A stretch of DNA of 64,000 bases from Arthrobacter sp. Leaf234 (lineage in GTDB: Bacteria > Actinomycetota > Actinomycetes > Actinomycetales > Micrococcaceae): NCBI RefSeq assembly GCF_001422665.1, contig NZ_LMLU01000005.1, positions 310,001 to 374,000 of the forward strand. Reading direction: 5' to 3'. The notes below the pieces were generated by a model. The model did not search any database and was not told the DNA's origin. It was given only the letters and a program-made list of their open reading frames with translations. A program made the translations under genes and the position numbers. Shown piece after piece: positions 35,583-40,148 of this stretch (within the stretch, counting starts at the first letter, position 1; each line of letters starts with the position of its first letter).

Positions 35583-36935
35583 TCAGGAAAGTGTGGCGGC
35601 GCGGGTCTCGGGGGCGTTGAACGCCATGAAGAGGACGGCCAGCAGCACCAGGCCGCCCGTCAGCGCGAAGGTGAGCGGCAGGCCGAGGTAGGGCCAGAGG
35701 AGGCTCCCGAAGATCAGCGGGACCAGACCGGCCCCGATGCGCGAGATGGTCGAGGCCCAGCCGAACCCGCTGCCCCGCAGGTCGGTCGGATACAGCTCCG
35801 ACACGTACGTGTAGAGCACGGGGATGGCCACCTGCACCACGAAGCCGAAGGCCAGCAGCCATGCTGTCGCGACCGCGGGCAGGTCGAGCGTGAGCGCGAA
35901 CACCACGAGGAGCGCCGCGGACCCGGGGCCCGTGATCGCGAGCAGCCACTTGCGGCCCACACGCTCCACCAGCAGCGCGGCCGCGATCACGCCGAGGAAG
36001 CCGACTCCGGTCATGAACGTGGTGGTGATGAAGGCGACGGACTGTGCGTAGCCGGAGGCGATGAGGATGCGCGGCATCCAGGTCAGTGCGCCGTAGTACA
36101 CCAGCAGGATCGTGAGGAAGAGGCTCCAGGCGGTCAGGGTGATGCGCCAGTTGTACCGCCACAGGCCGGTCAGCTGCCCGGAGATGCTGCCGATCGAGAG
36201 CTTCGGTGTCTCCTCGGGCTCGGGCAGGCGCCACTCGCGCTGCCCGCCTCCCGTCCGGGCCACGAGCTCGTCGATGACGGCCCGCGCCTCCTCGCGCCGT
36301 CCCCGCTGGACAAGATAGAGAGGGGATTCGGGTACCCCGCGCCGTACCCAGAACACGAGGAGGGCGGGGAGCACCATGACGAGCATCGCGTAGCGCCACT
36401 CACCCGTCTGCGCCACGACCGCCGTCGTCACCACGCCGCAGAGGAAGGCGCCGATGGGCCACCAGGCGTCCATCGCCGTCAGGACGCGCCCGCGCTGGCG
36501 CCGCGGCGTGAACTCCCCGACCAGCGCGTAGTCCACCGGGATGCAGCCGCCCAGGCCGAACCCGGCGAGGAACCGGAAGATGCAGAACCACACGATGTCC
36601 GGGGAGAAGGCACCGAGGACGGTGAAGACCGAGAAGACGAGCAGCGTCAGGGTGAAGGCCCGCTTCCGGCCGATGAGGTCGGCCACCGACCCCCACGCGA
36701 AAGCGCCGACGGCCATCCCGATCAGGTTCGAGGTGGCGATCCACGCCGACTGGCCGGACGTCAGGCCCCAGTCGCCGATCAGCAGGGGGATCAGATAGGC
36801 GTTGAGGGTCACGTCCCACGCGTCGAACATGAAGCCGAGGCCGCCGATGAGGAAGATCTTCCCCTGGACCTTCCAGCGCCAGGGAAGATCCTGCACCACC
36901 TGGTCGCCGGTGGGGAGCTGCGTATTGATGCTCAT
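35583..36935 (-). CDS. MFS transporter, metabolite:H+ symporter type
   Basis: The 450-aa protein has twelve predicted helices and the MFS signature GSVADLIGRKRAF between helices 2 and 3 (loop RKR). MFDAWDVTLNAYLIPLLIG at the N-terminus matches the aromatic-acid/organic-cation symporter subfamily. The substrate is not identifiable. ATG 36935 follows GAAGG. It is divergent from the DUF559 gene, and the promoter region between them contains the hairpin repeats. Confidence 0.85.
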   Translation of the reverse strand: MSINTQLPTGDQVVQDLPWRWKVQGKIFLIGGLGFMFDAWDVTLNAYLIPLLIGDWGLTSGQSAWIATSNLIGMAVGAFAWGSVADLIGRKRAFTLTLLVFSVFTVLGAFSPDIVWFCIFRFLAGFGLGGCIPVDYALVGEFTPRRQRGRVLTAMDAWWPIGAFLCGVVTTAVVAQTGEWRYAMLVMVLPALLVFWVRRGVPESPLYLVQRGRREEARAVIDELVARTGGGQREWRLPEPEETPKLSIGSISGQLTGLWRYNWRITLTAWSLFLTILLVYYGALTWMPRILIASGYAQSVAFITTTFMTGVGFLGVIAAALLVERVGRKWLLAITGPGSAALLVVFALTLDLPAVATAWLLAFGFVVQVAIPVLYTYVSELYPTDLRGSGFGWASTISRIGAGLVPLIFGSLLWPYLGLPLTFALTGGLVLLAVLFMAFNAPETRAATLS

Positions 36936-37057
36936 GATGCCTTCGTGGAGGGGCCGGATACTGCAGAAACTGTACCGCCGCCGGTGGGAGCGGGCCGCCG
37001 GATGGCCGACGTCGTTCCTTGCCCGGGGCCGGTGCTGTCCGGGCCCGCGGCTGGGCC

Positions 37058-37112
37058 GAGAAGACAGACGTGACCGCCAATGACCCCTTGTGCCGGTCAT
37101 GTCTGCCCTCTC
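37058..37112. repeat. Hairpin element, copy A
   Basis: The arms GAGAAGACAGACGTGACCG (37058-37076) and CGGTCATGTCTGCCCTCTC (37094-37112) pair at 16 Watson-Crick positions plus one G-U of 19, around a 16-nt loop. It lies between two divergent genes, so it is not an ordinary terminator of either. Confidence 0.85.
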
Positions 37113-37201
37113 GACGATGGCCGACGTCGTTCCTTGCCCAGCGCCGTTCCTTGCCCGGCGCCGTTCCTTGCGCCGGTGCTGTCCGGGCCCGCGGCTGGGC
37201 C

Positions 37202-37256
37202 GAGAAGACAGACGTGACCGCCAATGACCCCTTGTGCCGGTCATGTCTGCCCTCTC
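37202..37256. repeat. Hairpin element, copy B
   Basis: This is an exact second copy of copy A, 144 bp further on (arms 37202-37220 and 37238-37256). It is the nearer of the two to the DUF559 start. Confidence 0.85.
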
Positions 37257-37325
37257 GACGGGCGATCACTGGGCCGACCCTGTGGAGAACGTCGATGCTC
37301 CGATGCGCGGGCGCACTATGGGGCG

Positions 37326-38270
37326 ATGCCGACAGATCCTTACGCAACGGCCCTGCTGAACCTGACCTCGACGCGGTGCTTCTCGGTGGAGGCTGCCCGC
37401 GACCTCGGGATCCCCGCCAGTGTGCTCCGCCGCTCCCACTACCGGCGCACGACACGGAGCCTCCGTGTTCTCGATGCTGCACCCGCCGATCTGTCCGACG
37501 TCGTCGCCTGCCTCGCAGCGCTGACGCCGGGCACGGTCGCGAGCCACCAGACGGCTGCGGTCCTGTGGGGGCTGCCGCTTCCACGCCGATCGGTGGATGG
37601 ACTCCTGCATCTCACCCGATCGACGGGGTGCTCGCGGCCGCGCAGGTCCGGCGTCGTGGGTCACGTCGCGAGGCTGGGCCCGGGCGACGTCGCCACGGCG
37701 TACGGGGTGCCGCTCACCTCGCCCGAACGCACCTGGTGCGACCTGGCCGCGACACTTCCAGTTCCGGAACTCGTCGCACTGGGTGACGCGCTGCTTCGCC
37801 GATGGGATGCTCCGCGGCGGCCCGCAGCCATCAACGCACCGGACCCTCTCAGCAGCGTCGAGGCGCTGGCGGCAGTCCTTGCCCGGCGATCGGGCGCGCG
37901 GGGACTGGCTACCGCGCGAAAGGCGCTGCCGCTCCTCCGATCGGGAGTCGACTCCGCGCCGGAGAGCCTGCTCCGGTTGCTCATCACCGACGCAGGACTA
38001 CCCGAACCAGAGGTGAACCAGTGGATCCTGGACAGCGCTGGGCGGCGCGTGTCGCGACCGGATCTGCAGTACCGCGCGCGGTGCATCGCCCTCGAGTACG
38101 AAGGGGAACACCACCTCACCGACCCTCGCCAATGGGCGCGGGACATCGAGCGTGACGACCGCCTGCGGGCACTCGGATGGATCGTGCTGCGCTTCACGAA
38201 GAGACATCTAGGCGCCGGCCGCGACGACGGGCTGGAGCGGATCCGGCAGGCGCTGGCGCTGCGAGCGTGA
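37326..38270 (+). CDS. DUF559 protein with an AbiEi-like N-terminus
   Basis: The 314-aa protein has an N-terminal winged-helix-like region resembling AbiEi-type antitoxin proteins (CFSVEAARDLGIPASVLRRS and TPGTVASHQTAAVLWGLPLP). Its C-terminal DUF559 domain is related to Vsr/PD-(D/E)xK nucleases: Glu in ESLLRLLI, Asp in RPDLQY, acidic ALEYEGEHH, and a final FTKRHL. The lysine of a classical ExK is absent in the visible motif. Such genes are frequent in Arthrobacter-type genomes and their role is unknown. A CACTAT at 37314-37319 precedes the ATG at 37326, so the mRNA may be leaderless. Hairpin repeats lie on both sides. Confidence 0.75.
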   Translation: MPTDPYATALLNLTSTRCFSVEAARDLGIPASVLRRSHYRRTTRSLRVLDAAPADLSDVVACLAALTPGTVASHQTAAVLWGLPLPRRSVDGLLHLTRSTGCSRPRRSGVVGHVARLGPGDVATAYGVPLTSPERTWCDLAATLPVPELVALGDALLRRWDAPRRPAAINAPDPLSSVEALAAVLARRSGARGLATARKALPLLRSGVDSAPESLLRLLITDAGLPEPEVNQWILDSAGRRVSRPDLQYRARCIALEYEGEHHLTDPRQWARDIERDDRLRALGWIVLRFTKRHLGAGRDDGLERIRQALALRA

Positions 38271-38327
38271 CCCGCGGCACCGACGCCGGCGATTTCCGTG
38301 TGGCTCCCTTACGACGTTCGCCAGGAC

Positions 38328-38382
38328 GAGAGGACAGAAAAGACCGGGGGACGACGTATTCATCGGTCTTTTCTGCCCTCTC
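38328..38382. repeat. Hairpin element, copy C
   Basis: The arms GAGAGGACAGAAAAGACCG (38328-38346) and CGGTCTTTTCTGCCCTCTC (38364-38382) pair at 18 of 19 positions around a 17-nt loop. Copy C shares the outer arm GAGA-RGACAGA and TCTGCCCTCTCGACG with copies A and B; two inner base pairs have changed on both strands. It lies 58 bp past the DUF559 stop and upstream of purH. The rest of the 273-bp gap contains only the likely purH promoter. Confidence 0.85.
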
Positions 38383-38543
38383 GACGCGAGACCCGGTGAG
38401 AGAAGCCCGGCGCGAGACCCGCACCTTGACGCTCACCGCCGGCAGGCCAGGAACGCTGCCGCGGCCCCTTCCATTCGACGCCGGGAGCGGCACCTATACA
38501 CTTGTGGGCGACCCCCCAGCGAAGCAATGTGACGGAGATCTGC

Positions 38544-40148
38544 GTGAGCCTGACCCACCTCGACCGTGTCCCCATCCGCCGAGCACTGATCTCGGTGTTC
38601 GACAAGACCGGTCTGGAGGAGCTGGCGCAGGGCCTGCACCGCGCCGGCGTCGCCATCGTCTCGACCGGCTCGACGGCGCAGCGCATCGCCGCAGCGGGCG
38701 TGCCCGTGACCGAGGTGTCCGAGGTCACCGGTTTCCAGGAGACGCTCGACGGCCGGGTTAAGACCCTCCACCCGAAGGTGCACGCCGGGATCCTCGCCGA
38801 TCGTCGCCGCCAGGAGCACATCGACCAGCTCGCCGAGCTCGACATCGAGGCGTTCGACCTCGTCGTCGTCAACCTCTACCCCTTCGTCGAGACCGTGCGG
38901 TCCGGCGCTGAGCCGGACGCCGTCGTCGAGCAGATCGACATCGGCGGACCCGCCATGGTCCGCTCCGCGGCGAAGAACCACCCCTCGGTCGCGATCGTCG
39001 TGGACCCCGCGCGGTATGCGGACGTCGTCACGGCCGCCGGTGAGGGCGGCTTCGATCTCACGGCACGACGCCGGCTGGCCGCGCTCGCCTTCGCCCACAC
39101 CGCGGCCTACGACACCGCCGTCGCGTCCTGGACGGCCGAGCAGTTCGACACGGACGAGGAAGCCTTCACCTTCCCGGGGTACGCCGGTCTCGCCCTCGAG
39201 CGGTCCGAGGTACTGCGCTACGGCGAGAACCCGCACCAGCAGGCCGCGCTGTACGTCGAGAAGGGAGCCACGCCCGGCATCGCCCAGGCCGACCAGCTCC
39301 ACGGCAAGGCCATGAGCTACAACAACTTCGTCGATGCCGACGCCGCGCTGCGCGCCGCCTTCGACTTCGACGAGCCCGCCGTCGCGATCATCAAGCACGC
39401 CAACCCGTGCGGTGTGGCCGTCGGGAGCGCAGACGCGGAGGATCCGATCGCGGACGCCCATGCCAAGGCGCACGCCTGCGACCCCGTGTCGGCGTTCGGT
39501 GGTGTGATCGCCGCGAACCGCGAGGTGACCGCGCGCATGGCCGCCACCGTGAAGGACATCTTCACCGAGGTCGTCATCGCTCCTTCCTTCTCCGGGGAAG
39601 CCGTGGAGATCCTCTCGCAGAAGAAGAACATCCGCCTCCTGACGCTGCCCGACGGCTACGGCCGCAATCCGGTCGAGTTCCGTCAGGTGTCCGGGGGAGT
39701 GCTCATGCAGGTCGCGGACACGCTCGACGCCGACGGCGACGACCCCGCACGCTGGACGCTCGTCGCCGGTGAGGCTGCCGACCCGGCGACCCTCGCGGAC
39801 CTCGCCTTCGCCTGGAAGGCCTGCCGCGCCGCGAAGTCGAACGCCATCCTGCTCGCGTCCGACGGCGCGTCCGTCGGAGTGGGCATGGGGCAGGTCAATC
39901 GTGTGGACTCCTGCCGCCTCGCCGTCGAGCGGGCCAATTCCCTCGCCGGGACCGCGCGGGCCCGCGGGTCAGTCGCCGCGTCCGACGCTTTCTTCCCCTT
40001 CGCCGACGGATTGCAGATCCTGCTCGACGCCGGCGTCCGCGCCGTGGTCCAGCCGGGCGGCTCGGTGCGCGACCAGGAGGTCATCGACGCGGCGAACGCG
40101 GCCGGGGTCACGCTGTACCTGACCGGAGCCCGTCACTTCTTCCACTGA
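38544..40148 (+). CDS. purH: Bifunctional AICAR formyltransferase / IMP cyclohydrolase
   Basis: The 534-aa enzyme catalyses the last two steps of IMP synthesis. The N-terminal IMP cyclohydrolase domain (MGS-like fold, about residues 10-145) opens [20 protein letters not shown]. The AICAR transformylase domain (about 145-534) includes the catalytic [11 protein letters not shown]. Formyl-THF is the donor. GTG 38544 follows GGAGAT. Length matches other PurH proteins. It is separated from purN by about 8 kb here. Confidence 0.95.

Follow-up and report, generated by a model that had tools for sequence, protein, structure and literature searches.

As outlined in the accounts of PMC8266576 and PMC3733652, a REPtron consists of the gene of a DNA-cutting enzyme flanked by cognate palindromes, dispersed copies of which co-evolve with the enzyme. 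A comparable layout surrounds a gene of the little-studied DUF559 family in Arthrobacter sp. Leaf234, located in a window of 64,000 nucleotides (the whole stretch of DNA that was analysed) (Table 1). The gene is flanked by long palindromes with shared arms, the arm sequences are lineage-specific and track the protein, gene and palindromes are jointly present or absent at the purH locus, and further copies are dispersed in the genomes. This layout hints at an enzyme type not recognised so far, one that acts on such repeats or propagates them.

Table 1. Features of the DUF559 locus (window coordinates).
Feature	Position	Strand	Remarks
MFS transporter gene	35583..36938	-	left neighbour at filled and most empty loci
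Tandem direct repeat with hairpins A and B	37017..37260	.	100-nt copies 37017-37116 / 37161-37260, 95% alike
Hairpin A, 57-bp palindrome	37057..37113	.	upstream flank of DUF559 gene; covariance model R2 68.5 bits
Hairpin B, exact duplicate of A	37201..37257	.	68 bp 5' of DUF559 start; R2 68.4 bits
DUF559 gene, 314 aa	37326..38270	+	Pfam DUF559 21.6 bits (cut-off 20.6); MTES_1575 25.8 bits (below cut-off 38.2)
AbiEi-antitoxin-like region, residues 4-205	37335..37940	+	PADLOC AbiEi profiles; 6y8q Z 11.9
Vsr/I-Bth0305I-like nuclease domain, residues 208-314	37947..38267	+	3r3p Z 12.6; 1cw0 Z 10.8
Hairpin C	38327..38383	.	downstream flank of DUF559 gene; 1 mismatch in 20 pairs; R2 70.5 bits
purH	38544..40148	+	right neighbour at filled and empty loci

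Hairpins of the locus and their pairing

Hairpins A, B and C each comprise 57 nt, composed of two 20-nt arms and a 17-nt loop; a first-pass annotation of this DNA had recognised all three, with loops of 16-17 nt and arms set at 19 nt. B follows A at an offset of 144 bp, and since the two are identical duplicates, the three hairpins amount to just two independent sequences. Three imperfect pairs are present in A and in B. In a scan with a strong mismatch penalty, C ranks first among the inverted repeats of the whole window, and A and B stay below the threshold. Compared with shuffled sequences, A and C fold on either strand with z-scores of -4.3 to -6.7, none of 200 shuffles being as good in any case. 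The pair differences between A/B and C listed in the annotation (T-A to A-T, C-G to A-T, G-T to A-T) are correct. The hairpins end in CGAGA...TCTCG, the GTAG tag is absent, and inspection of the sequence revealed no T-run behind A, B or C. Integron attC sites carry the boxes RYYYAAC/GTTRRRY, none of which were seen in the hairpin consensus. Short tandem units of 17 bp, of the CGTTCCTTGCCC type, lie between A and B (window 37116-37172).

The annotation had read two of the differences as compensatory changes that keep the paired shape. Part of this apparent covariation goes back to a genome-specific arm motif and not to pairing. By a stricter test within genomes, the two arms of an Arthrobacter element still match one another more closely than they match arms elsewhere in that genome (960, against 911.6 expected, reached in 0 of 3000 derangements); shuffling chosen positions within genomes, a cruder approach, yielded p 0.03. 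Genome G167 shows no excess of arm covariation (124 vs 129 expected; 55 vs 54.7), so that pairing is backed in Arthrobacter, not everywhere. The annotation's alternative, a family of RNA hairpins bound by a protein, was dropped because the mismatches show no clear RNA-type wobble bias. On the sense strand of 25 hairpins oriented by their neighbouring genes, 13 G.U face 25 A.C mismatches; 34 other hairpins hold 38 A.C and 35 G.U, and 54 elements of another family, taken in arbitrary orientation, 55 G.U and 40 A.C. In the first two sets A.C is as frequent as G.U, and the pairing is therefore not RNA-like.

Predicted structure of the DUF559 protein

The Pfam DUF559 match, just over the cut-off, corresponds to the C-terminus of the 314-aa protein. 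The AlphaFold2 model (mean pLDDT 88.8) retrieved nothing at E <= 0.001 in a Foldseek search, the best match being Rv2827c (E 1.1e-3). In structure comparisons, residues 208-314 matched the catalytic domain of I-Bth0305I (3r3p, Z 12.6), NGO0050 (3hrl, Z 11.9) and Vsr (1cw0, Z 10.8, 26% identity), and residues 4-205 matched the AbiEi antitoxin (6y8q, Z 11.9), in agreement with PADLOC AbiEi profiles; TnsA (Z 6.8) is among the weaker fold matches of the protein. All 18 homologs compared keep E213, D246 and H263, presumably the counterparts of the Vsr active-site residues. The nuclease-like domain postulated in the annotation thereby takes shape as a Vsr/EDxHD-type fold, matched by the C-terminal domain (Z 10.8-12.6), and the protein is predicted to combine an AbiEi-like region with a Vsr/I-Bth0305I-type nuclease. 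No AbiEii toxin partner adjoins the gene in the window, its neighbours being the MFS transporter gene and purH. No function for the AbiEi-like plus Vsr-like DUF559 architecture was found in the libraries and open-licence PMC literature searched, and no link of DUF559, MTES_1575, AbiEi or Vsr to palindromic repeats in the open-licence PMC literature (mostly titles and abstracts).

The hairpin family across Arthrobacter

The whole host genome contains ACAGANNNGACCG five times, confined to four hairpins: besides A, B and C, one that separates a desaturase gene from an SRPBCC gene. When the spacer was left free (8 to 26), the motif was present in 12 of 38 genus genomes; 16 of the 20 distinct elements have a spacer of exactly 17, hence hairpin length is largely fixed. 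The covariance-model search of host and relatives that the annotation had proposed was run as model R2 and matched 33 of the 38 genomes (E<=0.05); counting both strands, a genome has between 0 and 36 matches. The host's 12 R2 matches correspond to about 6 elements, five of which were placed. Family matches include Arthrobacter bussei, A. echini and A. agilis, and the common arm motif of the family is CGAGANNRCAGAAATGACCG.

Among 59 elements on 41 stretches, 19 have convergent, 21 tandem and 19 divergent neighbours (rough gene calls), the divergent count being inflated because the gene caller missed the DUF559 gene. Many elements lie 4-42 nt past a stop codon. Direct repeats of 5, 6, 8 or 9 bp flank none of the 59 elements; flanks sharing 4 bp were found at two, 3 bp at two and 2 bp at 15 of them.

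Some positions recur from species to species. A hairpin is located 66-84 bp 5' of pta in ten genomes (L181-L183, L188, L189, L196-L199, L203), and another, in four genomes (L074, L079, L100, L104), separates rho from prfA, 41-42 bp upstream of the prfA start. The pta and rho-prfA hairpins are kept at orthologous sites across species, and therefore look more like long residence or a host role than like active movement. At the 3' end of the desaturase gene, inspected by eye, G000, G040 and G006 carry the element and lack the GC-rich hairpin of other genomes, and G044 and G020 carry both together. As the SRPBCC-ArsR genes lie between hairpins, hairpins were also considered as boundaries of any gene cassette; the pta locus rules this out, with SRPBCC-ArsR but no model match in G003, G023, G019, G046 and G012, and hairpins but no SRPBCC-ArsR in G038, G001 and G017.

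Several single observations were made at these and other sites. In G020 (L192) a decayed hairpin relic is discernible by eye upstream of pta, and G044 holds a tandem hairpin duplicate, 114 bp apart (L199:3176-3354), like A/B of the window. A hairpin is also situated between the isocitrate lyase and malate synthase genes (L073, L106, L095). In one genome a 301-aa protein with no Pfam match at E 1e-4 replaces SRPBCC beside ArsR between two hairpins (L089:13254-14159).

Filled and empty loci at purH

purH was located in 36 of 38 genus genomes, and 30 loci were examined. DUF559 lies beside purH in nine of them, with R2 matches on both sides in eight, i.e. eight genomes carry the hairpin-DUF559-hairpin arrangement whole at the home locus. 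In the ninth (G042) the protein is 60% identical, no R2 match is present and a differently spelled palindrome is located on one side. Of the 21 loci without DUF559, two (L177, L174) show one weak R2 match each. Empty-site alleles, which the annotation had suggested looking for in relatives, do exist: the unit is absent in ten relatives measured, where MFS and purH are 126-210 bp apart. When the span between the outer hairpin ends is subtracted from the filled loci (seven of the eight), 124, 145, 153, 157, 176, 197 and 278 bp remain, the last being the host value. Since filled-minus-unit spacing (124-278 bp) resembles the empty spacing, the whole unit appears to be gained or lost together.

In a tree of purH and pta from 28 genomes, whose backbone is weakly supported, the eight DUF559-bearing, hairpin-rich genomes form three separate clades, each adjoining DUF559-less, hairpin-poor genomes; one of these clades also holds G011, which is without DUF559, and G042 stands apart. 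Every one of the 8 genomes whose ortholog reaches 66% identity has at least 12 R2 matches, as have 4 of the 30 other genomes (Fisher p 1e-5, uncorrected for relatedness). The four exceptions are G003, G011, G042 and G048. G003 and G011, hairpin-rich without an ortholog, count against a cognate relationship of gene and hairpins (in G048, which is 83% complete, purH was not located).

DUF559 flanks and dispersed copies across the class

DUF559 homologs are common in actinomycetes, being present in 139 of 196 class genomes sampled, some genomes having at least 12 matches. A flank scan of 30 genus homologs found a palindrome on one or both sides of most; the arm sequence varies by DUF559 lineage, and where both sides carry one, the two are often alike. 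In the class, the upstream and downstream flanks have a segment in common (score at least 16) at 68 of 87 homologs, against 11 of 696 when the flanks are mismatched; for the genus the figures are 23 of 30 and 7 of 240. The 19 and 7 homologs, respectively, that stay below 16 speak against a cognate pair. With a score of at least 18 and 2-kb flanks, 45 of 59 homologs share a segment, compared with none of 92 pairs of neighbouring windows. Cross-pairs of same-genome paralogs do so in 5 of 88 cases. At one locus (L138) the DUF559 flanks share an unusually long segment (score 101.5); this locus holds runs of N.

Long hairpins (score at least 11) were found upstream of 86 and downstream of 72 out of 116 homologs. 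Control rates are 16 in 177 for neighbouring windows and 1 in 116 for shuffled upstream flanks. Under a strict test, in which palindromes must match on both sides, 49 of 116 homologs are positive, as are 11 of 928 mismatched pairs; that just 49 pass weighs against the cognate pair. At these 49 genes, 78 of the 98 palindromes are 54-75 nt long, and the downstream one starts at the stop codon itself in 11. Typically, the upstream palindrome starts about 100-250 bp before the coding match and the downstream one within 80 bp past the stop. The more alike two proteins are, the more alike are their hairpins (Mantel r 0.272, against at most 0.169 in 999 permutations), with matching hairpins in all 16 closest protein pairs and in none of the 233 most distant. 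DUF559 paralogs sampled within one genome mostly differ, 1 of 44 aligned pairs being >90% identical. The annotation's idea of a REP-like palindrome tied to the DUF559 protein is supported well past this locus by the repeats that match between the two flanks (68 of 87 homologs in the class), by the joint presence or absence at the home locus, by arms that track the protein and by the copies dispersed in the genomes.

Of nine named loci inspected, four (Arthrobacter sp. StoSoilB13, Arthrobacter sp. ERGS1:01 and two of Tsukamurella tyrosinosolvens) are bracketed by matching hairpins; the other five, with one hairpin or none, argue against a cognate pair. In one T. tyrosinosolvens record (L348) the DUF559 gene with its matching hairpins has a phosphoribosylaminoimidazolesuccinocarboxamide synthase gene on one side and purB on the other, purine genes once more. 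A match in Agromyces (L145) lacks the outer arm motif and was left out of the counts. The phage collection yielded one putative record, with one hairpin on one side.

Dispersed copies are numerous in some genomes. In 11 of the 22 genomes searched, the arm type TTGATCWTGGAG is present with 2 to 124 copies; the reversed pattern gave none. The copies read comprise 54 distinct sequences of 58-59 or 67-70 nt. The palindromes of two named Arthrobacter genes recur at 13 and 9 places, exclusively in records of the respective strain, numbers that include the flanking copies and may count one palindrome once per strand. The annotation had suggested testing whether copies cluster beside DUF559 genes; they do flank these genes, but solo copies need not be near one, the 20 examined in G167 all being farther than 600 bp from any DUF559 homolog. 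Copy number and homolog strength are at odds with a cognate pair in two genomes, G202 having a strong homolog and 2 motif copies, G167 weak homologs and 97 copies.

Proposed function and alternatives

The AbiEi-like/Vsr-like DUF559 genes and the long palindromes of fixed length probably represent a cognate pair, in which the protein would bind and nick the palindrome and move, copy or maintain it. According to this proposal, the protein would bind the palindrome in the shape of a folded single strand or a cruciform, the AbiEi-like region may recognise the folded form and the Vsr-like domain may nick it. Nicking could then lead to movement, copying or maintenance of the palindrome, by analogy with what is thought of TnpA-REP and REPs. 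Extended to the whole group, the evidence leaves the odds about even that DUF559 proteins with an AbiEi-like region are palindrome-dedicated, non-HUH nucleases, widespread in actinomycetes, which recognise and spread or guard their own hairpins and co-evolve with them lineage by lineage.

The two leading alternatives are a role as operators of a regulon and an autonomous insertion sequence. AbiEi autoregulation acts via inverted repeats, and the AbiEi-like region could similarly bind the palindromes as double-stranded operators, serving autoregulation and a regulon, the nuclease acting elsewhere. This fits the AbiEi antitoxin fold of the N-terminal region, the pairing that is not RNA-like (A.C as frequent as G.U) and the steady distances upstream of pta and prfA, but it does not account for a second copy downstream of the gene (at the stop codon in 11 of 49), for the many copies between convergent genes or for the arms of one Arthrobacter element agreeing beyond the genome motif, and is considered improbable. 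A similarly low probability is assigned to an insertion sequence with hairpins as ends, DUF559 as transposase and solo hairpins as miniature derivatives. The unit is wholly present or absent at purH, its ends match and TnsA is among the weaker fold matches, yet sampled same-genome paralogs mostly differ, one locus is kept in distant species including G042, and flanking direct repeats of 5, 6, 8 or 9 bp are absent from all 59 elements; a typical insertion sequence is disfavoured because of this long residence, the divergent paralogs and the lack of such repeats.

That the hairpins are ordinary or bidirectional transcription terminators is very unlikely, even though many copies lie 4-42 nt past stop codons or between convergent genes and, by eye, the hairpin stands without the usual GC-rich one at the desaturase 3' end in G000, G040 and G006. 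In G044 and G020 both coexist; moreover, the arms contain a conserved 20-nt motif, arm identity is specific to the DUF559 lineage and copies occupy divergent promoter regions (A, B, upstream of pta). As the annotation had held, A and B in their divergent region differ from ordinary terminators, a view to which the missing T-run (also behind C) and the fixed 57-nt length contribute. Least credible, with hardly any probability left, is a classical REP/RAYT system: the layout and genomic placement are like those of REPtrons as described in PMC3733652, but Y1 (RAYT-type) transposases (PF01797) are found in 0 of 38 Arthrobacter genomes, the GTAG tag is absent and the DUF559 protein has another fold.

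The reading as a cognate pair provides each DUF559 protein with a specific, testable substrate, its own palindrome. Confirmation would place a second, unrelated class of enzymes for dispersed palindromes beside the RAYTs, with a bearing on the origin of such repeats and on orphan palindrome families lacking a known enzyme.

Comparison with known systems

Two components of the DUF559 unit have counterparts outside repeat biology. With the AbiE toxin-antitoxin system (AbiEi, 6y8q) it shares the AbiEi-like N-terminal region, but differs in the fused nuclease domain, the flanking and dispersed palindromes and the lack of an adjoining AbiEii in the window. The predicted fold of the C-terminal domain resembles Vsr and the homing endonuclease I-Bth0305I, from which it is set apart by its junction to an AbiEi-like region and its association with palindromes.

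Among palindrome-based systems, the CGTC REPs, as presented in PMC3733652, are likewise palindromes without a known dedicated transposase, but have stems of 8-9 bp and loops of 4-5 nt and occur mainly in alpha-Proteobacteria, compared with 20-nt arms and a 17-nt loop here; that relatives of the nuclease are the missing partner of such orphan palindromes is speculation. TIRtrons, with their enzymes, the TIRYTs, are described in the same source as genes flanked by long inverted repeats, some self-complementary and some forming repeat families, which resembles the DUF559 unit, but TIRYTs keep the HUH motif and the catalytic tyrosine. Closest are the REPtrons (RAYT/TnpA-REP with GTAG REPs). In the descriptions of PMC3733652 and PMC8266576, they too have a nuclease-type gene between cognate palindromes, dispersed solo copies downstream of or between genes, some tandem pairs, and lineage-specific repeats co-evolving with the enzyme. 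They encode an HUH/Y1 enzyme and their repeats bear the GTAG tag, whereas the unit described here encodes a DUF559 protein with a predicted Vsr-like nuclease domain, and its palindromes are untagged, mostly 54-75 nt long and long-armed. The DUF559 unit would thus work like a REPtron yet is none, because its enzyme is unrelated to HUH proteins and the 38 genomes of the genus yielded no Y1 transposase.
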